A stretch of DNA of 64,000 nucleotides from Favolaschia claudopus (lineage: Eukaryota > Basidiomycota > Agaricomycetes > Agaricales > Mycenaceae), in assembly GCA_037176885.1 (NCBI GenBank), contig JAWWNJ010000161.1, positions 434,001 to 498,000 of the forward strand, read 5' to 3'. A program made the position numbers and the translations under genes. Each line of letters starts with the position of its first letter. Positions within the stretch are counted from its first letter, which is position 1. This document shows positions 7,116 through 64,000 of this stretch, one piece after another. The notes under the pieces were generated by a model. The model had not been told where the DNA came from and did no database searches. It saw only the letters and a list, made by a program, of their open reading frames with translations.

Positions 7116-7988
7116 TTAGTTGGACTTGGCAAGCTCGAACGACCAAAGCTGGTTCTCATTGGGGTCGAGCTGACCCCACCATCCTTGGATCTTGGTGCCG
7201 TTGGTCGAGGACCTGAGAATATTTTCATGCGTCAGCCACCAGCCAATCTGACAAGTAATGAAAGTTCAACGCGCCCACTGTCAAGGTCCAGGTAGTCTAT
7301 TCACACCGGTGTTATTATACAGACAGACAGACGACGTGTGGATCCACTCACTCCCGGAGCCTAGGTTGCGGACCCTACGAAAGATCATCCAGTCAAACTG
7401 AGGGACCCAATGAAACGCTCGGAGCACATACTTGTAGTAGTTGTCCTTGATCTTCACAAACTCCCACTCCTGATACTCGGGGGTGGGGTCGGAGGCTTTG
7501 CTGGAGGCCGTAACGGGGGTACCGTCAGTACCGTTGCCTGTTACAAGGCTGAGCTTGCCCCGCCCATACATAATCTTAGAAGTAAGACTGGCCTCCGCTG
7601 ATCTCGAGTAAAGTTCCACTGCCAATGTTGATGATATAGTAGGAGTCGACTCCCTCACGGGTGGTGGGCACGATGTTCCAGATCTGGTTCTTGTACTCGT
7701 CGTACTTGGAATCGAGAGGCTCCCAGCCTTGAACTCTAGCTCCTGAACTCGCAATGTGAATATTGGAGAGTGTCTATCGGCACGATGTCAAAATGCTCAC
7801 CGTCCTCCTTGTTAGTAAGAACTGCGCCAAGCATGAAAGCATGAAACGAAAAAATTATTTACCACCGTCGAGATCAACTCGGGTGTGGGACTGGAAGTTG
7901 GTGATGGTGTCTGAGAGTGCGTGAGCATACTGATCAATGTCGGTGAAGAGGGCCAGGACGACGTACAGTTGCCGTTGAAGATGGGCAT
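7116..7988 (-). CDS. ricin B-type lectin domain protein
   Basis: Single beta-trefoil lectin of 167 aa, cytoplasmic or leaderless (no signal peptide), as usual for mushroom R-type lectins. Eight exons: 7988-7967, 7910-7863, 7821-7801, 7742-7589, 7548-7432, 7374-7352, 7296-7275 and 7212-7116. The three QxW-type motifs of the family are seen: NQIWNI, YQEWEF and NQLWSF, one per trefoil lobe, with sugar-loop sequences such as YLDLDSGSSTNGTKIQGWW. No catalytic toxin A chain accompanies it. Two introns are very short (41 and 40 nt); the 40-nt one (7588-7549) is the weakest junction and could instead be a frameshift. The intron at 7274-7213 starts with GC. Likely role: carbohydrate binding in defence or development, by family. 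Confidence 0.85.
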
Positions 7989-8057
7989 GGTGAATTGAAG
8001 ATGCTTGGATTGTGCAGATGAGTATTGGACTGAGGCAAGAGGCAAAGATGCGTTGGC

Positions 8058-8064
8058 TTTTATA
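8058..8064 (-). promoter_or_regulatory. TATA box of the lectin gene
   Basis: TATAAAA on the minus strand, 70 bp upstream of the lectin ATG at 7988, in the context AGTATAAAAGCC. A good core-promoter match, suggesting a strongly or conditionally expressed gene. Confidence 0.6.
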
Positions 8065-8605
8065 CTGGAACTCTCGTGGGTCCGCGGGGACGAGGGTGGC
8101 ACCATTTCATGCTAATTTGACGATGTCGGTAGAGCTCGTCGACTCTTTCGAGGAAGATGAGCAAACGTTGGCTTCCGATGAGCGCCGGGCAGGTGTTAGG
8201 CAGGCCATCATGAGCTGGAGGTTATACCCGACGCTTCTTTTGGATGAAGCGTAGAGTTAGCTCGACGTCGAACGCGTGTGCCGAACAAAAATGGCCCCAT
8301 AGCGCCAAGCTTTGAATGAAATCAGGACGTTGAGCAGAGGCGGAACGACGCTGAATGAACTAAGAATCCCGCGGCTCACTCGAAAAATGAAGGACGTGCG
8401 CGATGCAATTGCTAAGACCGTCAGCTAGGGAAACCTCCTACTGTCAATGAACTGGCACCCCACAAAATCGAGGGGCCAAGGTAGAATTAGTGCGGCTGTC
8501 CAGCACAAAGGCTGAGTTGAAACTGTCGGCGTCAGATACTGTAAGAATTGCGTAAGAATGCAAGCGTTAAATTACACTCCACAACGCGCAAAGTAGACTC
8601 AACAC
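8065..8605. other. intergenic
   Basis: Promoter-side flank of the lectin gene and 3' flank of the DAHP synthase gene. No supported coding region. Confidence 0.45.
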
Positions 8606-50845: not shown

Positions 50846-51433
50846 CTAGCTACGGTAACGGGGAATTCGGCGCCGAATTCCTTGCCAAAAGGTCCCCAAA
50901 CGAGTGGAATTCGGGGCGACAACGACAGCGTGAGAGGGAATTCGGGGCGTCGCATACAAAAACACCTCGAAAATCCAAGGAATTCATGGAATCCGGGGCG
51001 TCACTTGATTCTTGGGACCACGTAGAGGGGAATTCGGAGCGTCAACTGGAATCCGGGGCGACATGAATTTTCCCAGAATTTTCGCAAACACACAATACTT
51101 ATAACAACTCGCCACTGACTATAAGAAACGAAGGAACCCAACTCAACTCTTATAGCCCAAAGCAAGGCCTTATAATAAATGCAACCCAAAGGAACCCCTC
51201 TCAGCCGACCCAATTGCCCAAACGAATTATTATAACGGCTCACCAGCCCTTATAATAAATGCCAGCTAAAATCATTATTATAGACACCGATTGGACAGTG
51301 CGGAAAATATTGCTGGAACCAAATATGTCCCAAATGGCCCGCAAACCATGGTAGGGTCACCGCGAATGGCCTGACAGGTCTCGTTGACTTGCTATATGGC
51401 CTCGAACGGAAACCGTAGGCCGAAAACGAAACT
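50846..51433 (-). mobile_element. Helitron-like terminus, copy 1
   Basis: Read on the minus strand the sequence ends hairpin, 12-nt spacer, CTAG, as Helitron 3' ends do (hairpin about 10-12 nt before CTRR). The hairpin is the perfect palindrome GGAATTCGGCGCCGAATTCC. Inside lie repeated motifs GGAATTCGGGGCG and GGAATCCGGGGCG (about 50907-51064, five to six copies). TTATAA-containing motifs and a block around TGGCCTGACAGGTCTCGTTGAC follow. No RepHel protein is encoded, so non-autonomous. Confidence 0.6.
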
Positions 51434-52105
51434 CTAGCTACGGTAATGGGGAATTACGATCGTAATTCCGTGAAAAGCGTCCCCAAACTGGTGGAATTAT
51501 GGTTGCAATTGACATCGTGGGAAGGAATTATGGTTGACGTGCTTAACAACAGGTCTAAAATGACTCAAATCGCAGGAATTATGGTTGATGACTGGAATTA
51601 TGGTTGCACCCAGAATCTTCGGACTAGAAACAAACGCACAATAAATATAGTCGAACACAGCACCCTATAAGAAATCAAAAAGGACAACAGAATCTTATAG
51701 TCACCAGCCAGGCCTTATAAGAATTGCGACTCACTGCCCAAAAAAATTATAAGCCAGAGCCAAGGCTTATAAGAAACGCAATTAAAATAGCCGACTCTGA
51801 GGCCTTGTAAGAAACCAGGAAAAATAGTGGAGACCAAAAGGGTGCCAAATAGCCTACAAATCAGCCTAGTGTCACCGCAAACACCTGAACAGGTCTCGTT
51901 GACGTGCTATATTGACTTGGATGGAAACCGTACAGCTGGGACCGAAACCTGACTACGACAATCAATTGAGCACCAATTGCCTTGGCTATAGGGCTGAATG
52001 GAAGCGTTTGACGAGGACTATAAGATTATGTCATCAGCGATTGAGTCGCAGGTCACCTGACATATACGATGTAACGCTGACACTTGAATATATCAACTGA
52101 AGTGC
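51434..52105 (-). mobile_element. Helitron-like terminus, copy 2, nested in a copy-1-like body
   Basis: Same architecture as copy 1, but the hairpin is GGAATTACGATCGTAATTCC and the internal motif is GGAATTATGGTTG (four copies, 51493-51607). It sits after GAAACT, where the body of copy 3 (about 60640) continues uninterrupted as GAAACTCTGATAGC, so copy 2 inserted into an older copy. The right-hand end is not resolved. Confidence 0.6.
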
Positions 52106-52208
52106 TAAATATAGCGCAGCAGAGAATCTACCACCAAAATATATATATAACACAATCAACCAACACACACAACACTACAACACAAATATCTCAACAAGAT
52201 ACACTCAA

Positions 52209-52403
52209 ATGTCTCTCGAAGAGTTCGTGGGGTTCGATCCGAAATCCAGATGTCACAGTGACGAGGATATAAGTCGACTTGCAAGTAAGAACCTTGCACA
52301 AAACACGCTCTCACACACCGTAGATGGAAGTGATTCCGTCCGCGGACCTTTCCTAAAAATAGGAACTATAAACGGTAGGATACAAGATACCCAACGAAGT
52401 TGA
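52209..52403 (+). CDS. hypothetical ORF upstream of the repeat array
   Basis: An ATG at 52209 gives 64 aa, MSLEEFVGFDPKSRCHSDED ... GPFLKIGTINGRIQ, with reasonable codon use. A TATA-rich run (ATATATATAA) lies about 60-70 bp upstream, and a GTAGGA donor near the end suggests more exons. No homology. It may be the surviving 5' end of a gene or element whose body was amplified in the array that follows. Confidence 0.3.
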   Translation: MSLEEFVGFDPKSRCHSDEDISRLASKNLAQNTLSHTVDGSDSVRGPFLKIGTINGRIQDTQRS

Positions 52404-52616
52404 ATATCAGGGCGAGATTGAAACAATGGCCACAGACAGTTTCCGCGGCAGAATGCACAATTCTTATAGCGCCAGTTACGCTATAGACCTGAACCTCCAA
52501 ATTCCAGGAACCTTTGACACTCCTTTATATAGCACAAGCCTATGTATCTCATCCTGGAAAATAGCGCTATATTCCGATTTGTTCAACAAGGGCGAATTGA
52601 GGGCTGCTGAACGGAA

Positions 52617-52735
52617 TACAGCGGCAAGGGGGAAAACAGCGGCGGAATATAGCGGTGAGTGGGAAAACAGCGGCGGAATATAGCGGTAGGGGGGAAAACA
52701 GCGGCGGAATATAGCGGTAGGGGGGGAACCAGCGA
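52617..52735 (+). repeat. 31-bp minisatellite inside each array unit
   Basis: Core AACAGCGGCGGAATATAGCG followed by GTGAGTGGGAA or GTAGGGGGGAA. Three copies in the first two array units and two in the others, so copy number varies between units. Listed here for the first unit only. Confidence 0.85.
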
Positions 52736-52949
52736 AACCGGGAGATCGCCGGCAAGGCGGAGGGGACTGCCTTGGGTGCAGAGGCAAATCAAAGGGTACG
52801 AGCAGGGGTACTGCCCTGGGGTGCCACCGGAGCCGTCCACTGTCTGGCGGGAAGTCGGGAATATTTTTCACGTCATTTAACGCAGAGGCCTGCACGTCCT
52901 GGAACCTGGTTCAACAAGGCCTGGGAGCTGTTGTTGAGGCTCTGCTGAG

Positions 52950-53205
52950 AAATCGGCTTGTCACACTTCAAGCAGAACAACGGTTGACCACTATTGCATT
53001 GATGATTCTGACACGGACACGGACAATTCAGACGCAGGAACTGCTTCCTCTGACACGGACGACTAGGAGTCGGAACCCGAATTTGATCCAAAAAATCAAT
53101 CTATGTCGATATACTTACCAAAGGCAGCGGTGGACACTCAGCTACGACTGGGTTATCCGGTGCTGTTGGATATCGTATTCAACGTCGGTCCTTTGAAGAG
53201 AGCTT
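52950..53205 (+). pseudogene. decayed acidic ORF repeated in the array
   Basis: One frame reads DDSDTDTDNSDAGTASSDTDD, a stop, then ESEPEFDPKNQSMSIYLPKA, AVDTQLRLGYPVLLDIVFNV, GPLKRAS and a stop. The acidic Ser/Asp start followed by a hydrophobic domain looks like real coding sequence with one internal stop. The same stop occurs in the six copies (52950, 54214, 55436, 56993, 58561 and 59320 regions), so it predates amplification. Protein family not recognised. Confidence 0.45.
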
Positions 53206-53567
53206 CATAGAATCAAAGGGTACGAGCAGGGGTACTGCCCTGGGGTGCCACCGGAGCCAAGGGATGGCTGGCGGGAAGTCGGGAATATTTTTAGCGTCAT
53301 TGAATGCAAAGGCCTGCACGTCTTGGAACCTGGTTCAACAAGGCCTGGGAGCTGTTGTTGAACAAAGCCACTGTTCGTGTTCATAAACGTTGCGGATCCG
53401 CCATGTGAGTGCGTTTGACCTCTGCGGCTTCGGGGATGAGAACCCAGGGACACGGACCAGGCCTTTGAGCTGAAGGGTTAGGCCGGGAGACCACAAGAGA
53501 GTGCGGAGCGACCAAACTGAAGGGGTCCGCTGGTTCGAGAGGGCAATGGGGCCGACAAATAAATAAA

Positions 53568-53828
53568 ATGGAGCCCGGGTATACGGCAGGAATCAGTGGC
53601 TCTAAAGCTGGTGCCTATTCAATTGTTCTTTCTACTCCGGTTGACGCTCTTTTTATCCGTTTTGATTATCTACCAGACTCTACCCGAGGAGAAACACGTA
53701 TATGCGGCCATGACTCACTGGTTCCGAGCCACAGTATAAAGGGAGATTTTCCGACCCTGGCACTCCCGCAGCTGCTTGGAAACTGGTGGTGTTTTGGGGG
53801 AGGCTATGTATCTCATCCTGGAAAATAG
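53568..53828 (+). CDS. 86-aa ORF conserved in five array units
   Basis: MEPGYTAGISGSKAGAYSIV ... DYLPDSTRGETRICGHDSLV ... LLGNWWCFGGGYVSHPGK. Identical in the units at 53568, 54832, 56054 and 57611; the fifth copy (59938) is cut by the insertion at 60127 and reads into it. Conservation may only reflect recent amplification. No recognised domain. Confidence 0.3.
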   Translation: MEPGYTAGISGSKAGAYSIVLSTPVDALFIRFDYLPDSTRGETRICGHDSLVPSHSIKGDFPTLALPQLLGNWWCFGGGYVSHPGK

Positions 53829-56800
53829 CGCTATATTCCGATTTGTTCAACAAGGGCGAATTGAGGGCTGCTGAACGGAATACAGCGGCAAGGGGGAAAA
53901 CAGCGGCGGAATATAGCGGTGAGTGGGAAAACAGCGGCGGAATATAGCGGTAGGGGGGAAAACAGCGGCGGAATATAGCGGTAGGGGGGGAACCAGCGAA
54001 ACCGGGAGATCGCCGGCAAGGCGGAGGGGACTGCCTTGGGTGCAGAGGCAAATCAAAGGGTACGAGCAGGGGTACTGCCCTGGGGTGCCACCGGAGCCGT
54101 CCACTGTCTGGCGGGAAGTCGGGAATATTTTTCACGTCATTTAACGCAGAGGCCTGCACGTCCTGGAACCTGGTTCAACAAGGCCTGGGAGCTGTTGTTG
54201 AGGCTCTGCTGAGAAATCGGCTTGTCACACTTCAAGCAGAACAACGGTTGACCACTATTGCATTGATGATTCTGACACGGACACGGACAATTCAGACGCA
54301 GGAACTGCTTCCTCTGACACGGACGACTAGGAGTCGGAACCCGAATTTGATCCAAAAAATCAATCTATGTCGATATACTTACCAAAGGCAGCGGTGGACA
54401 CTCAGCTACGACTGGGTTATCCGGTGCTGTTGGATATCGTATTCAACGTCGGTCCTTTGAAGAGAGCTTCATAGAATCAAAGGGTACGAGCAGGGGTACT
54501 GCCCTGGGGTGCCACCGGAGCCAAGGGATGGCTGGCGGGAAGTCGGGAATATTTTTAGCGTCATTGAATGCAAAGGCCTGCACGTCTTGGAACCTGGTTC
54601 AACAAGGCCTGGGAGCTGTTGTTGAACAAAGCCACTGTTCGTGTTCATAAACGTTGCGGATCCGCCATGTGAGTGCGTTTGACCTCTGCGGCTTCGGGGA
54701 TGAGAACCCAGGGACACGGACCAGGCCTTTGAGCTGAAGGGTTAGGCCGGGAGACCACAAGAGAGTGCGGAGCGACCAAACTGAAGGGGTCCGCTGGTTC
54801 GAGAGGGCAATGGGGCCGACAAATAAATAAAATGGAGCCCGGGTATACGGCAGGAATCAGTGGCTCTAAAGCTGGTGCCTATTCAATTGTTCTTTCTACT
54901 CCGGTTGACGCTCTTTTTATCCGTTTTGATTATCTACCAGACTCTACCCGAGGAGAAACACGTATATGCGGCCATGACTCACTGGTTCCGAGCCACAGTA
55001 TAAAGGGAGATTTTCCGACCCTGGCACTCCCGCAGCTGCTTGGAAACTGGTGGTGTTTTGGGGGAGGCTATGTATCTCATCCTGGAAAATAGCGCTATAT
55101 TCCGATTTGTTCAACAAGGGCGAATTGAGGGCTGCTGAACGGAATACAGCGGCAAGGGGGAAAACAGCGGCGGAATATAGCGGTAGGGGGGAAAACAGCG
55201 GCGGAATATAGCGGTAGGGGGGGAACCAGCGAAACCGGGAGATCGCCGGCAAGGCGGAGGGGACTGCCTTGGGTGCAGAGGCAAATCAAAGGGTACGTGC
55301 CCTGGGGTGCCACCGGAGCCGTCCACTGTCTGGCGGGAAGTCGGGAATATTTTTCACGTCATTTAACGCAGAGGCCTGCACGTCCTGGAACCTGGTTCAA
55401 CAAGGCCTGGGAGCTGTTGTTGAGGCTCTGCTGAGAAATCGGCTTGTCACACTTCAAGCAGAACAACGGTTGACCACTATTGCATTGATGATTCTGACAC
55501 GGACACGGACAATTCAGACGCAGGAACTGCTTCCTCTGACACGGACGACTAGGAGTCGGAACCCGAATTTGATCCAAAAAATCAATCTATGTCGATATAC
55601 TTACCAAAGGCAGCGGTGGACACTCAGCTACGACTGGGTTATCCGGTGCTGTTGGATATCGTATTCAACGTCGGTCCTTTGAAGAGAGCTTCATAGAATC
55701 AAAGGGTACGAGCAGGGGTACTGCCCTGGGGTGCCACCGGAGCCAAGGGATGGCTGGCGGGAAGTCGGGAATATTTTTAGCGTCATTGAATGCAAAGGCC
55801 TGCACGTCTTGGAACCTGGTTCAACAAGGCCTGGGAGCTGTTGTTGAACAAAGCCACTGTTCGTGTTCATAAACGTTGCGGATCCGCCATGTGAGTGCGT
55901 TTGACCTCTGCGGCTTCGGGGATGAGAACCCAGGGACACGGACCAGGCCTTTGAGCTGAAGGGTTAGGCCGGGAGACCACAAGAGAGTGCGGAGCGACCA
56001 AACTGAAGGGGTCCGCTGGTTCGAGAGGGCAATGGGGCCGACAAATAAATAAAATGGAGCCCGGGTATACGGCAGGAATCAGTGGCTCTAAAGCTGGTGC
56101 CTATTCAATTGTTCTTTCTACTCCGGTTGACGCTCTTTTTATCCGTTTTGATTATCTACCAGACTCTACCCGAGGAGAAACACGTATATGCGGCCATGAC
56201 TCACTGGTTCCGAGCCACAGTATAAAGGGAGATTTTCCGACCCTGGCACTCCCGCAGCTGCTTGGAAACTGGTGGTGTTTTGGGGGAGGCTATGTATCTC
56301 ATCCTGGAAAATAGCGCTATATTCCGATTTGTTCAACAAGGGCGAATTGAGGGCTGCTGAACGGAATACAGCGGCAAGGGGGAAAACAGCGGCGGAATAT
56401 AGCGGTGAGTGGGAAAACAGCGGCGGAATATAGCGGTAGGGGGGGAACCAGCGAAACCGGGAGATCGCCGGCAAGGCGGAGGGGACTGCCTTGGGTGCAG
56501 AGGCAAATCAAAGGGTACGAGCAGGGGTACTGCCCTGGGGTGCCACCGGAGCCAAGGGATGGCTGGCGGGAAGTCGGGAATATTTTTAGCGTCATTGAAT
56601 GCAAAGGCCTGCACGTCTTGGAACCTATGTATCTCATCCTGGAAAATAGCGCTATATTCCGATTTGTTCGACAAGGGCGAATTGAGGGCTGCTGAACGGA
56701 ATACAGCGGCAAGGGGGAAAACAGCGGCGGAATATAGCGGTGAGTGGGAAAACAGCGGCGGAATATAGCGGTAGGGGGGGAACCAGCGAAACCGGGAGAT

Positions 56801-59800
56801 CGCCGGCAAGGCGGAGGGGACTGCCTTGGGTGCAGAGGCAAATCAAAGGGTACGTGCCCTGGGGTGCCACCGGAGCCGTCCACTGTCTGGCGGGAAGTCG
56901 GGAATATTTTTCACGTCATTTAACGCAGAGGCCTGCACGTCCTGGAACCTGGTTCAACAAGGCCTGGGAGCTGTTGTTGAGGCTCTGCTGAGAAATCGGC
57001 TTGTCACACTTCAAGCAGAACAACGGTTGACCACTATTGCATTGATGATTCTGACACGGACACGGACAATTCAGACGCAGGAACTGCTTCCTCTGACACG
57101 GACGACTAGGAGTCGGAACCCGAATTTGATCCAAAAAATCAATCTATGTCGATATACTTACCAAAGGCAGCGGTGGACACTCAGCTACGACTGGGTTATC
57201 CGGTGCTGTTGGATATCGTATTCAACGTCGGTCCTTTGAAGAGAGCTTCATAGAATCAAAGGGTACGAGCAGGGGTACTGCCCTGGGGTGCCACCGGAGC
57301 CAAGGGATGGCTGGCGGGAAGTCGGGAATATTTTTAGCGTCATTGAATGCAAAGGCCTGCACGTCTTGGAACCTGGTTCAACAAGGCCTGGGAGCTGTTG
57401 TTGAACAAAGCCACTGTTCGTGTTCATAAACGTTGCGGATCCGCCATGTGAGTGCGTTTGACCTCTGCGGCTTCGGGGATGAGAACCCAGGGACACGGAC
57501 CAGGCCTTTGAGCTGAAGGGTTAGGCCGGGAGACCACAAGAGAGTGCGGAGCGACCAAACTGAAGGGGTCCGCTGGTTCGAGAGGGCAATGGGGCCGACA
57601 AATAAATAAAATGGAGCCCGGGTATACGGCAGGAATCAGTGGCTCTAAAGCTGGTGCCTATTCAATTGTTCTTTCTACTCCGGTTGACGCTCTTTTTATC
57701 CGTTTTGATTATCTACCAGACTCTACCCGAGGAGAAACACGTATATGCGGCCATGACTCACTGGTTCCGAGCCACAGTATAAAGGGAGATTTTCCGACCC
57801 TGGCACTCCCGCAGCTGCTTGGAAACTGGTGGTGTTTTGGGGGAGGCTATGTATCTCATCCTGGAAAATAGCGCTATATTCCGATTTGTTCAACAAGGGC
57901 GAATTGAGGGCTGCTGAACGGAATACAGCGGCAAGGGGGAAAACAGCGGCGGAATATAGCGGTGAGTGGGAAAACAGCGGCGGAATATAGCGGTAGGGGG
58001 GGAACCAGCGAAACCGGGAGATCGCCGGCAAGGCGGAGGGGACTGCCTTGGGTGCAGAGGCAAATCAAAGGGTACGAGCAGGGGTACTGCCCTGGGGTGC
58101 CACCGGAGCCAAGGGATGGCTGGCGGGAAGTCGGGAATATTTTTAGCGTCATTGAATGCAAAGGCCTGCACGTCTTGGAACCTATGTATCTCATCCTGGA
58201 AAATAGCGCTATATTCCGATTTGTTCGACAAGGGCGAATTGAGGGCTGCTGAACGGAATACAGCGGCAAGGGGGAAAACAGCGGCGGAATATAGCGGTGA
58301 GTGGGAAAACAGCGGCGGAATATAGCGGTAGGGGGGGAACCAGCGAAACCGGGAGATCGCCGGCAAGGCGGAGGGGACTGCCTTGGGTGCAGAGGCAAAT
58401 CAAAGGGTACGAGCAGGGGTACTGCCCTGGGGTGCCACCGGAGCCGTCCACTGTCTGGCGGGAAGTCGGGAATATTTTTCACGTCATTTAACGCAGAGGC
58501 CTGCACGTCCTGGAACCTGGTTCAACAAGGCCTGGGAGCTGTTGTTGAGGCTCTGCTGAGAAATCGGCTTGTCACACTTCAAGCAGAACAACGGTTGACC
58601 ACTATTGCATTGATGATTCTGACACGGACACGGACAATTCAGACGCAGGAACTGCTTCCTCTGACACGGACGACTAGGAGTCGGAACCCGAATTTGATCC
58701 AAAAAATCAATCTATGTCGATATACTTACCAAAGGCAGCGGTGGACACTCAGCTACGACTGGGTTATCCGGTGCTGTTGGATATCGTATTCAACGTCGGT
58801 CCTTTGAAGAGAGCTTCATAGAATCAAAGGGTACGAGCAGGGGTACTGCCCTGGGGTGCCACCGGAGCCAAGGGATGGCTGGCGGGAAGTCGGGAATATT
58901 TTTAGCGTCATTGAATGCAAAGGCCTGCACGTCTTGGAACCTATGTATCTCATCCTGGAAAATAGCGCTATATTCCGATTTGTTCAACAAGGGCGAATTG
59001 AGGGCTGCTGAACGGAATACAGCGGCAAGGGGGAAAACAGCGGCGGAATATAGCGGTGAGTGGGAAAACAGCGGCGGAATATAGCGGTAGGGGGGGAACC
59101 AGCGAAACCGGGAGATCGCCGGCAAGGCGGAGGGGACTGCCTTGGGTGCAGAGGCAAATCAAAGGGTACGAGCAGGGGTACTGCCCTGGGGTGCCACCGG
59201 AGCCGTCCACTGTCTGGCGGGAAGTCGGGAATATTTTTCACGTCATTTAACGCAGAGGCCTGCACGTCCTGGAACCTGGTTCAACAAGGCCTGGGAGCTG
59301 TTGTTGAGGCTCTGCTGAGAAATCGGCTTGTCACACTTCAAGCAGAACAACGGTTGACCACTATTGCATTGATGATTCTGACACGGACACGGACAATTCA
59401 GACGCAGGAACTGCTTCCTCTGACACGGACGACTAGGAGTCGGAACCCGAATTTGATCCAAAAAATCAATCTATGTCGATATACTTACCAAAGGCAGCGG
59501 TGGACACTCAGCTACGACTGGGTTATCCGGTGCTGTTGGATATCGTATTCAACGTCGGTCCTTTGAAGAGAGCTTCATAGAATCAAAGGGTACGAGCAGG
59601 GGTACTGCCCTGGGGTGCCACCGGAGCCAAGGGATGGCTGGCGGGAAGTCGGGAATATTTTTAGCGTCATTGAATGCAAAGGCCTGCACGTCTTGGAACC
59701 TGGTTCAACAAGGCCTGGGAGCTGTTGTTGAACAAAGCCACTGTTCGTGTTCATAAACGTTGCGGATCCGCCATGTGAGTGCGTTTGACCTCTGCGGCTT

Positions 59801-60126
59801 CGGGGATGAGAACCCAGGGACACGGACCAGGCCTTTGAGCTGAAGGGTTAGGCCGGGAGACCACAAGAGAGTGCGGAGCGACCAAACTGAAGGGGTCCGC
59901 TGGTTCGAGAGGGCAATGGGGCCGACAAATAAATAAAATGGAGCCCGGGTATACGGCAGGAATCAGTGGCTCTAAAGCTGGTGCCTATTCAATTGTTCTT
60001 TCTACTCCGGTTGACGCTCTTTTTATCCGTTTTGATTATCTACCAGACTCTACCCGAGGAGAAACACGTATATGCGGCCATGACTCACTGGTTCCGAGCC
60101 ACAGTATAAAGGGAGATTTTCCGACC

Positions 60127-61486
60127 CTAGCTACGGTAACGGGGAATGCAGGGCGGCATTCCGTGAAAAGGTCTCTGAATCTACTGGAATCCACGGCGTC
60201 GTTGAGATTGTGGGAAGGAATCCATGGCGCATCAACGCAACAAGGTGTAAATTGGACCTCAAATCACCGGAATCCATGGCGTCGCCAGGAATCCACGGCG
60301 TCGTCTGCCAACCCTCTGCCAACAGGAAAATAAAAAGAACACTGTCAAACAATCTCAGCACTGACTCGAGAGTGCACAAGAAATCTTATAGATGAGCCCA
60401 AGTCCTTATATTAAATGCGAAAAAATTATAACCAAGTGCGAGCCCTTATAATTAAATTCATTATTATAGTCGACCGTACAGCACTATATTAACGCTGCCA
60501 AAAAATATTGTGGGAACCAAAGATGTCCCAAATGGGCTACAAACCATGGTAGTGTCACCACAAATGGCCTGACAGGTCTCATTGACCTGCTATATGGCTT
60601 CGAACGGAAACCGTAGGGCGAAAACCGAAACTCTGATAGCACAGTCAATTGTGCACCGATTGCCTTGGGTATAGGCTCGAATTGAAGCGTTTGAATAGAG
60701 CTACAAGGGTCTGCCATGATCGGCCTTATCGAACCGCATGAAGGGACTCAAGTACTGGGACGCGTTAAATATATACGGTCATTTGCGTGCAGAGACAAGT
60801 GCATTGCATCAATTGAATACATCTCACTGATAGGCCTTCAAAACCACGGATCACAGGTCTCTGGTGTCCTGGCAAGGTTTAGGGATATCAACTTGAACGG
60901 GTAGAGACACTGCGTAAACCCAAACACGCCTATCGAAGCTATACGGAATCCAGCAAGGCACCACCAGAGCAGAGACGTTAAGGTTGGCGACAACCCAACA
61001 GCACGGACGTTAAGGTTAGCGACCCCACTCCCCCGACGGAATTCACCAGAATATAAAATTTTTTCGGCAGCTTCGGAAAGGAAATCGAAGAGCACACAAT
61101 CCAGCAAGGCAGTGCACGGGTTAACAATGCAATGCAGCAAGACATTGGCGAGCTAGCCACTCATAGCTCCCCGCTATCGTAAAGGAAACCAAGGTCATCG
61201 GAGTGAGGGGAGAGACCTATTCAGCTAGAGAGCAACGACTATACGGCCAGAGACCACAGAGTACAACACTTCAAACAGTACAGACATTCAGTGAAGGTCA
61301 AGCATTATTATAAGGCCAGAATAGCACTCAATAAGAGCATCACCCTATAGTGTTCAAGTGAGTCAATGCATTGAACCAGCCCAGTGAACACCATTGAGCC
61401 CATGTATCAAGAGCCAGAGTCAGCACCTTATAATGGAACAAAGCCTTGGTGGTATAGCTTGGAATGTGGAGGGAGATCCACAAAGA
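60127..61486 (-). mobile_element. Helitron-like terminus and body, copy 3
   Basis: CTAG, 12-nt spacer, then hairpin GGAATGC..GCATTCC. Internal motif GGAATCCAYGGCG (four copies, 60186-60301). Then TTATAA motifs, the GACAGGTCTCATTGACCTGC block, a 62-aa ORF at 60716-60904, and a pair of ACGTTAAGGTT motifs (60977-61020) before CCGACGGAATTCACCAGAA. It interrupts the array after CCGACC; intact units continue there as CCGACCCTGGCACTC, so the left boundary is certain to within two bases. Confidence 0.65.
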
Positions 61487-61684
61487 CTAGCTACGCTAAC
61501 GGAGAATGCGGTGCCGCATTCCTTGCAAAGGGTCCCCAAAAGTGCTGGGATTCGGGTGGGCACTGGCAGCGTGGGAGGGAATCCGGAGGGGCACCAATTC
61601 AAACACCTCCCGATCTGGCTGACTTGGTGGAATTCGGAGGGGCAAGCGGAATCGGGAGGGGCAAGCCATCTGACCCCTCCAAGT
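61487..61684 (-). mobile_element. Helitron-like terminus, copy 4 (short)
   Basis: CTAGCTACGCTAAC, then hairpin GAATGCGGTGCCGCATTC. Motifs GGAATCCGGAGGGGC, GGAATTCGGAGGGGC and GGAATCGGGAGGGGC follow (61579-61670). It ends where copy 5 begins. Confidence 0.55.
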
Positions 61685-62967
61685 CTAGCTACGGTAATGG
61701 GGAATTACAATTGCAATTCCGTGAAAGGGGTCCCCAAACCGGTGGAATTACACTTGCAGTCGAGATCGTGAGAAGGAATTACAGTTGACGTGCTAACAAA
61801 CAGGTCTTAAATGACTCAGATTTCAGGAATTACAGTTGCAGTTGTGATTCAGCCACTGAAGCCACAGGAATTCAAAGAGAGCAACCAACTCTTATAGTGA
61901 CCAGCCAGGCCTTATAAGAATTGCGACTCACTGCCCAAAAAAATTATAAGCCAGAGCCAAGGCTTATAAGAAATGCAATTAAAATAGCCGACTCTGAGGC
62001 CTTATAAGAAAGCAGGAAAAATAGTGGAGACCAAAAGGGTGCCAAATAGCCTACAAATCAGCCTAGTGTCAGCGAAAACACCCGAACAGGTCTCGTTGAC
62101 TTGGTATATTGACTTGAATGGAAATCGTACAGCTTGGACCGAAAGCTAGGTACGACAGTCAATCAAGCACCGATTGCCTTGGTTGTAGGCTCGAATGGAA
62201 GCGTTTGACGAGGACTATAAGATTATGTCATCAGCGATCGAGTCGCAGGTCCCCTGACATTCACGACTGGGTGAAACACTGCGTTCGAGGCCATGCGCAA
62301 TGCACAAGGCAACACCGAAGCACGGATGTTAAGGTTTGGGACAACACCACAACACGGACGTTAAGGTTAGTGGTCCCACTCCCCCGACGGAATTCACCAG
62401 AATATAAAATTTTTTCGGCAGCTTCGGAAAGGAAACCGCGGACCAAGCAATCCAGCAAGGCAATGCACAGGTTAACAAAGGAATCCCGCAAGACATTGGC
62501 GAACTAGCCACTCAGACCTCCCCGCTATCGTAAAGGAAATCGCGGATGACCGAGTCAAAGGAAGGACGTTCTCAGGTGTACAACACGAAGGCCAACAGTA
62601 CATCACCAAGTACAATAGCAGGCGATCAACCCTAGTGAGTATCATCCCTTGCAACAACAGCAATGGGCACAGTCAGAGTGCTCTACCCACCAGTCCACTC
62701 AGAGCCGGACTAGCAGGAGTCCGAGTCATACAACACAACCCCGTTCATCGACTCATCATCAGGGGGACTTGTGGCAGTATACAGAGCATTATAGTGGGCA
62801 ATATATCATTGAACACGAGTCAACTGAACACGCCCTACCCACAGAACACGGCATCTGGCACCCACTCCAATAATCACTTGCGACGCTAGCAGGAGACTAT
62901 AACGACAGGGAATTGGGTGCCAAACGAAGACACAAACTGCTGGAATCAGGAGCCGGATCCAGAGAGA
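61685..62967 (-). mobile_element. Helitron-like terminus and body, copy 5
   Basis: Hairpin GGAATTACAATTGCAATTCC; motifs GGAATTACACTTGCAG and GGAATTACAGTTG (three copies, 61743-61840). The body (about 61880-62260) matches copy 2 (51690-52070). The part near 62325-62430 carries the paired ACGTTAAGGTT motifs also seen in copies 3 and 6. Confidence 0.55.
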
Positions 62968-64000
62968 CTAGCTACGGTAACGGGGAATGCAGGGCGGCAT
63001 TCCGTGAAAAGGTCTCTGAATCTACTGGAATCCACGGCGTCGTTGAGATTGTGGGAAGGAATCCATGGCGCATCAACGCAACAAGGTGTAAATTGGACCT
63101 CAAATCACCGGAATCCATGGCGTCGCCAGGAATCCACGGCGTCGTCTGCCAACCCTCTGCCAACAGGAAAATAAAAAGAACACTGTCAAACAATCTCAGC
63201 ACTGACTCGAGAGTGCACAAGAAATCTTATAGATGAGCCCAAGTCCTTATATTAAATGCGAAAAAATTATAACCAAGTGCGAGCCCTTATAATTAAATTC
63301 ATTATTATAGTCGACCGTACAGCACTATATTAACGCTGCCAAAAAATATTGTGGGAACCAAAGATGTCCCAAATGGGCTACAAACCATGGTAGTGTCACC
63401 ACAAATGGCCTGACAGGTCTCATTGACCTGCTATATGGCTTCGAACGGAAACCGTAGGGCGAAAACCGAAACTCTGATAGCACAGTCAATTGTGCACCGA
63501 TTGCCTTGGGTATAGGCTCGAATTGAAGCGTTTGAATAGAGCTACAAGGGTCTGCCATGATCGGCCTTATCGAACCGCATGAAGGGACTCAAGTACTGGG
63601 ACGCGTTAAATATATACGGTCATTTGCGTGCAGAGACAAGTGCATTGCATCAATTGAATACATCTCACTGATAGGCCTTCAAAACCACGGATCACAGGTC
63701 TCTGGTGTCCTGGCAAGGTTTAGGGATATCAACTTGAACGGGTAGAGACACTGCGTAAACCCAAACACGCCTATCGAAGCTATACGGAATCCAGCAAGGC
63801 ACCACCAGAGCAGAGACGTTAAGGTTGGCGACAACCCAACAGCACGGACGTTAAGGTTAGCGACCCCACTCCCCCGACGGAATTCACCAGAATATAAAAT
63901 TTTTTCGGCAGCTTCGGAAAGGAAATCGAAGAGCACACAATCCAGCAAGGCAGTGCACGGGTTAACAATGCAATGCAGCAAGACATTGGCGAGCTAGCCA
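62968..64000 (-). mobile_element. Helitron-like terminus and body, copy 6, runs off the window
   Basis: Nearly identical to copy 3 (60127-61159), offset 2841 bp, including hairpin, motifs and the 62-aa ORF (63557-63745). It shows a direct duplication of about 2.84 kb that continues past the edge. Confidence 0.65.

Follow-up and report, generated by a model that had tools for sequence, protein, structure and literature searches.

Chromosome-End Elements of Favolaschia claudopus with Class-Specific Left Ends and a Putative Recombinase-Helicase Gene

Helicases linked to telomeres are a long-known feature of fungal chromosome ends, and to our knowledge no clear role has been assigned to them. Here, we report on six repeated termini in a 64,000-nucleotide stretch of the basidiomycete Favolaschia claudopus (family Mycenaceae; GenBank assembly GCA_037176885.1; contig JAWWNJ010000161.1, hereafter C161, positions 434001 to 498000; "the window"). 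These termini form the left ends of elements located at chromosome ends, a larger phenomenon than was described in the original prediction made from this stretch. Taken as a whole, the elements probably constitute a mobile family with a recombinase-helicase and class-specific ends. In copies that carry a gene, the encoded protein combines an OrsD-type zinc-finger region with a tyrosine-recombinase-like domain that is unannotated and with a RecQ-type helicase, and the type of the zinc-finger module agrees with the type of the iteron block at the left end at 12 of 12 gene-carrying loci.

The window termini start at positions 50846, 51434, 60127, 61487, 61685, and 62968 (window numbering). Each consists of CTAG, a 12-nucleotide spacer, a 20-nucleotide palindrome of the type GGAAT-N10-ATTCC (one copy starts with AGAAT), and then three to five iterons (GGAAT/GGGAT-N8 motifs) within about 190 bp. 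Palindromes pair at 8 to 10 of 10 positions, although palindromicity itself is no independent result, because the search admitted only palindromes with 8 or more of 10 pairs. CTAG plus CTACGGTAAYGG is exact in five of the six termini, and the terminus at 61487 has the spacer CTACGCTAACGG; the spacer alone, with up to 2 mismatches, has 8 window matches versus 5.26 expected, which is within chance. The six predicted termini sharing CTAG, spacer, and hairpin were thus borne out with one spacer variant; the original prediction had given three to six motif copies over 100 to 200 bp. The terminus at 62968 repeats that at 60127 (identical across the 1,033 bases remaining in the window), so the window holds five classes; with 21 classes in the genome sample, the hairpin core does differ among copies, as had been proposed.

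Twelve gene-carrying loci (four type A, four type B, and four neither; C83:1163603 and C452 look identical in searches, leaving at most 11 independent loci) were compared using the C161 copy as the type A probe and the copy on C17 as the type B probe. The agreement of iteron-block and zinc-finger types in a 4/4/4 division would arise by chance once in 34,650 arrangements, a figure for which the thresholds were post hoc and descent was ignored. The B leader aligns through the left block from base 1 at C17 (three copies) and C226 and from base 31 at C115 and C83:1125095, where the iterons are included and the first half of the palindrome, which spans bases 17 to 36, is not; elsewhere its main alignment begins at bases 330 to 386, with at most a separate piece at 77 to 78% within the first 100 bases. 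Identity to zinc finger B is 100, 93, 89, and 87% at the four type B loci and does not exceed 72% at the remaining eight. For the A leader, the alignment begins at base 1 in C161, C69 (two copies), C256, and C189, at base 203 in C153, and at bases 326 to 374 elsewhere, plus small, weak left pieces; zinc-finger A identity is 100, 96, 82, and 80% at the type A loci and 69 to 74% at the other eight. Between the C161 and C17 copies, the recombinase exons are 98% identical, residues 1 to 200 of the zinc-finger exons are 60 to 85% identical per 20-residue block (90 to 100% beyond), the left 350 bp are 38 to 74% identical, and the leader between these two modules is 68 to 97% identical (at least 80% in 8 of 10 windows).

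These alignments strongly support a putative specificity switch involving the OrsD-type zinc-finger protein, as far as the iterons are concerned; the case for a switch extending to the palindrome is weaker. A switch in which each subfamily is recognized by its own protein had been predicted, with RepHel as that protein. The matched, putatively DNA-binding module stands, and the iterons switch with it, but the protein that carries it shows no sign of being RepHel, with no Rep domain in the four exons scanned, and the palindrome follows less clearly.

Copies were also grouped by hairpin, as the original prediction had suggested, and the fit of motifs to palindromes was scored in 44 of 51 termini clusters comprising 21 palindrome classes (L008 was left out as an artefact: one left end there overlaps another, and it is the second that owns the motifs). 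The fit of motifs to their own palindrome was 4.20 of 8 versus 2.97 for others, and 0 of 20,000 shuffles were as good. The values were 4.19 and 2.98 with L008 included (45 clusters) and 4.32 versus 2.93 with near-identical palindromes merged (18 classes; 0 of 20,000 shuffles). The class's own palindrome ranked first in 8 of 21 classes and among the top three in 14. The predicted match of motif and hairpin within a copy therefore holds on average across the 21 classes and is poor in seven of them.

Left ends were located through their CTAGCTA start, such that shortened ends would escape detection, and collapsed to 82 left flanks, 13 of which are right-end flanks. Of the remaining 69, 46 have an uninterrupted counterpart. 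At 36 of these 46 junctions the target continues with CT (background, 0.051; P = 1e-37); the third base after CT is A at only 3 of the 36, and the match is therefore CT, not more of CTAG. G seldom precedes the join (3 of 69, against a background before CT of 0.227; P = 3e-5). For the join at 60127, four uninterrupted copies of the target (TTTTCCGACC^CTGGCACTCC) lie in the neighboring array of 1,264-bp units, and the distal half of its target was sought further out on the contig and not found. No right end rejoining a target was found either: all 15 right-end-like contexts (motif, approximately GGATCCAGAAAGA; a consensus derived from tandem junctions, which counts against the reading given here) have CTAGCTA next and adjoin another left end, and the distal DNA therefore looks lost, as in terminal addition. 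Left junctions that lack right junctions, at varied depths in older elements, are the pattern of repeated terminal addition; fixed orientation and distal truncation are observed, and from them we infer the addition itself.

A search of the 264.6-Mb genome (460 contigs) for CTAG plus spacer, also suggested earlier, returned 646 exact copies of CTAGCTACGGTAAYGG and 0 of the reversed-pattern control. The loci examined yielded 92 distinct termini in 50 clusters, with two kinds of spacer, CTACGGTAAYGG and CTATCTTMCCCG. Among the matches listed, CTAG faces away from the nearest contig end in 100 of 100 copies, and 96 lie within 100 kb of a contig end; the others are C3:194313 (without a palindrome) and three copies on C21, two of which have TTAGGG repeats next and then other sequence. 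TTAGGG runs were present in 5 of 50 loci scanned, and in all five the element body leads straight into the run; for C161, C5, and C7 the run is at the contig end, and for C27 and C21 it is interior. No run was found at the ends of C8 and C10 that were examined. At C8:3170224-3243053 (L010 to L029), a tandem array with a composite unit of about 2,736 bp holds more than 20 left ends, which suggests multimer formation or unequal exchange. At C21:2050899 (L047), 222 kb from the contig end, interstitial TTAGGG stands directly behind the element body; the C21 repeat is likely an internalized old chromosome end.

The element at C17:2436313 reads left end, leader of about 1.3 kb, and gene directed toward the telomere, with the gene copy 15 kb from the contig end. 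The C161 gene copy breaks off ahead of its helicase part, about 0.4 kb inside the telomere. At C161:527161-528348 and beyond (L033/L034), the outermost C161 element has its helicase gene interrupted by another left end, one with the second type of spacer (CTAGCTATCTTCCCCG), and this left end reaches the telomere after about 0.3 kb. A left end also cuts the helicase gene on C83, and the match of F. claudopus protein P0001 spans that junction (100% identity over residues 155 to 546 and 99% over 1 to 156).

A Pfam scan of two exons from each of the C161 and C17 copies matched only OrsD (weak), DEAD, and Helicase_C. DEAD and Helicase_C are present in the C17 copy, a RecQ-type helicase gene beside telomeric repeats and in that sense a telomere-linked helicase. 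Neither GCR1_C nor DUF3435 was matched in the exons and homologues scanned. Between zinc fingers and helicase, catalytic R, K, R, H, and Y occur in order, each kept in 87 to 89 of 90 aligned sequences and present in the inspected translation of the C17 copy. Two AlphaFold models (of homologues P0013 and P0116, not the host protein) showed the tyrosine-recombinase catalytic fold in the top 22 and top 21 rows of VIA, a re-examination of the Foldseek list in which mostly helical models can reach such Z values by common arrangement. By residues and predicted fold, the domain is tyrosine-recombinase-like, a putative enzyme.

Several observations weigh against the interpretation as a mobile family with class-specific ends. 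For the protein, the Foldseek search of the model gave no significant match (best E value, 0.36), and the position that usually holds the second-box His varies (N in 45, A in 15, S in 12, and H in 3 of 90). For the classes, the palindrome is not demonstrably common to C115 and C83:1125095, two of the four type B loci; fit is poor in 7 of 21 classes, type A included (CCGTCGACGG, CCGTTGACGG, CTGGATCCAG, TGGGCACCCA [rank 9], TGAGAGCTCA, GCGGTGCCGC, and GCATGCATGC), TGGGCACCCA being the class of the C161 gene copy, whose own iterons fit poorly; TACGATCGTA and CCGTCGACGG each occur with two iteron types; and both spacers are seen with 9 of 21 palindromes. For the joins, 23 of 69 flanks are without a counterpart, 10 of 46 targets do not continue with CT, and an interior left-end copy at C27:1741280-1741451 (minus strand) is in reversed orientation. 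Right-left tandem joins need something more than one-by-one terminal addition, such as multimers or site-specific recombination, and arrays also seem to have spread between chromosome ends via ordinary recombination.

The termini had originally been labeled Helitron-like. Helitrons such as HELPO1/2 of Pleurotus have, as described (PMC4289320), a CTRR-like end, about 12 nucleotides, a hairpin of 16 to 20 nucleotides, and TC at the opposite end. Read on the minus strand, the termini here likewise show a 20-nucleotide hairpin, 12 nucleotides, and CTAG-3'. Of the 13 right-end flanks, 8 finish with GA (minus-strand TC) and the rest with GC, GG, or GT. RepHel Helitron genes are also abundant, with at least 167 PF14214 matches from 150 scored of 587 candidates. 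Many listed matches lie within long open frames (e.g., C120:430603 and C52:969557). The copies might thus be nonautonomous Helitrons moved in trans by RepHel Helitrons, with a captured telomere-linked helicase gene and with the hairpin and iterons serving a rolling-circle Rep, but this we regard as improbable. The target is CT rather than the A|T given in that description, and A precedes CTAG in 16 of 69 flanks; no Rep domain was found in the four scanned exons; among the matches listed, no PF14214 falls within 20 kb of any of the 12 gene-carrying loci, and the nearest approach to the 100 listed termini, on C8, is about 24 kb. The copies are also polar, sitting at chromosome ends with the distal side apparently lost, and a zinc-finger type that agrees with the end type at every locus would be unexpected for a passenger gene. 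RepHel Helitron identity is not supported, despite the close end anatomy; the label is probably wrong, and the Helitron-like ends may reflect convergence or takeover of a Helitron end.

Shuffling of old subtelomeric repeats by break-induced replication and unequal exchange, with CT junctions as CTAG microhomology and no active element, would suit the composite units present as tandem multimers and the identical junctions that recur on several contigs. Microhomology predicts graded CTAG matches, however, and the scarcity of A as the third base does not follow that gradient; moreover, after each of 69 different non-tandem flanks the same exact left end begins at CTAG (found by the CTAGCTA start), and we consider this explanation very doubtful. 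Common descent of whole elements, instead of functional matching, might account for the paired left-block and zinc-finger types, and type A identities do fall jointly (zinc finger/leader, 96/97% at C69, 82/89% at C256, and 80/84% at C189). Yet recombinase identity to C161 (99% at C189; 98% at C69 and C17; 95% at C256 and C226; 84 to 87% at the rest) does not track type, and type B spans both recombinase groups, because C17 and C226 are at 98 and 95% and C115 and C83 at 86 and 84%. The leader between the modules is 82 to 91% alike in other-type loci (type B whole leader, 90 to 91%), and synonymous divergence (dS) between C161 and C17 is 0.90 in zinc-finger codons 1 to 200 and 0.09 in the recombinase exon. 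Descent alone is thus unlikely.

In the mobile-family explanation, gene copies encode a telomere-linked helicase with OrsD-type zinc fingers, a tyrosine-recombinase-like middle, and a RecQ-type helicase. From these sequences we infer that each class's zinc fingers bind that class's iterons, perhaps also its palindrome, and that the recombinase domain makes the CT joins: with help from the helicase it would cut at CT and join the CTAG end onto an eroded or broken chromosome end. The left end is joined, mostly at CT, to whatever DNA stood there, often an older element, and gene-less copies would depend for their mobilization on a gene copy from their own class. It is possible, and we offer it tentatively, that this is a third route of chromosome-end building besides telomerase and telomeric retroelements, in which a recombinase-helicase element joins its CTAG end at CT and has split into self-recognizing classes via paired exchange of zinc fingers and iterons (perhaps palindromes), discriminating gene-less copies and competitors.

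Window copies are gene-less, all on the plus strand; their left ends resemble the C17 or C161 element over 65 to 307 bp (72 to 82%), and their bodies match the gene-distal part at 87 to 92% identity in the two longest stretches. Left end 1 (50846 to 50881; spacer, CTACGGTAACGG; palindrome, GGAATTCGGCGCCGAATTCC at 50862 to 50881) is followed by iterons of the GGAATTCGGGGCG type (50906 to 51060). Left end 2 (51434 to 51469; palindrome, GGAATTACGATCGTAATTCC) joins at GAAACT^CT within the body of element 1 (counterpart at 3 mismatches) and has four GGAATTATGGTTG iterons (51493 to 51606) and a body piece (51713 to 52069) with 92% identity to positions 7726 to 8084 of the C17 element, a region distal of the helicase gene, which is itself absent from element 2. 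A tandem array (52539 to 60126; unit, about 1,264 bp; 8 starts), in which some units are shortened and each holds 3 to 4 copies of an inner 31-bp repeat, is the target of left end 3 (60127 to 60162; palindrome, GGAATGCAGGGCGGCATTCC; join, CCGACC^CT), with four GGAATCCAYGGCG iterons (60186 to 60300). A right end (61461 to 61486, ending GAGATCCACAAAGA) directly adjoins left end 4 (61487 to 61522; spacer, CTACGCTAACGG; palindrome, AGAATGCGGTGCCGCATTCC; GGAATYCGGAGGG-type iterons, 61547 to 61660). Left end 5 (61685 to 61720; palindrome, GGAATTACAATTGCAATTCC; GGAATTACAGTTG-type iterons, 61744 to 61838) precedes a body (61910 to 62663) with 87% identity to C17 element positions 7726 to 8495, again distal of the helicase gene. 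A second right end (62942 to 62967, ending CGGATCCAGAGAGA) directly adjoins left end 6 (62968 to 63003; class of left end 3; iterons, 63027 to 63141), which starts the next 2,841-bp repeat of its array.

In the open-access literature searched, we found no description of a recombinase domain in telomere-linked helicases or of their ends, nor of CT-directed addition or matched site and finger modules. Telomere-linked helicases are known; within that literature, the recombinase-like domain, defined ends, CT rule, and matched modules appear to be new. Together these features make telomere-linked helicases a testable mobile-element system, and the natural zinc-finger/site pairs are material for learning how DNA recognition diverges.

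Cryptons and Starship captains are fungal tyrosine-recombinase elements with the recombinase gene beside one end, reading inward. The elements here share that placement and direction and differ in having no DUF3435 or GCR1_C in the scanned exons, a fused helicase, and no second junction seen. HeT-A/TART of Drosophila and the terminons of rotifers are reverse-transcriptase elements in head-to-tail, distally truncated arrays of fixed orientation; the chromosome-end arrays here are built alike, but with a recombinase-helicase instead of a reverse transcriptase and in coexistence with TTAGGG repeats. In HsdS target-recognition domain exchange and in rolling-circle Rep-iteron pairs, a DNA-binding module and its site vary jointly while the catalytic part is shared, as here, where, unlike in those systems, the setting is a eukaryotic chromosome-end element and site and domain lie about 1 kb apart. 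Closest are the fungal telomere-linked helicases: Ustilago maydis (UTAS) and Agaricus bisporus var. burnettii have multicopy RecQ-type helicase genes beside telomeres, and the U. maydis set includes OrsD domains, while for A. bisporus no domain other than the helicase core is reported in the available portion (PMC7473861, PMC10532341). The F. claudopus genes resemble these in being RecQ-type, in several copies, next to telomeres, and, as in U. maydis, in having OrsD; compared with what those portions describe, they add a recombinase-like domain, element ends, a target rule, and matched modules.
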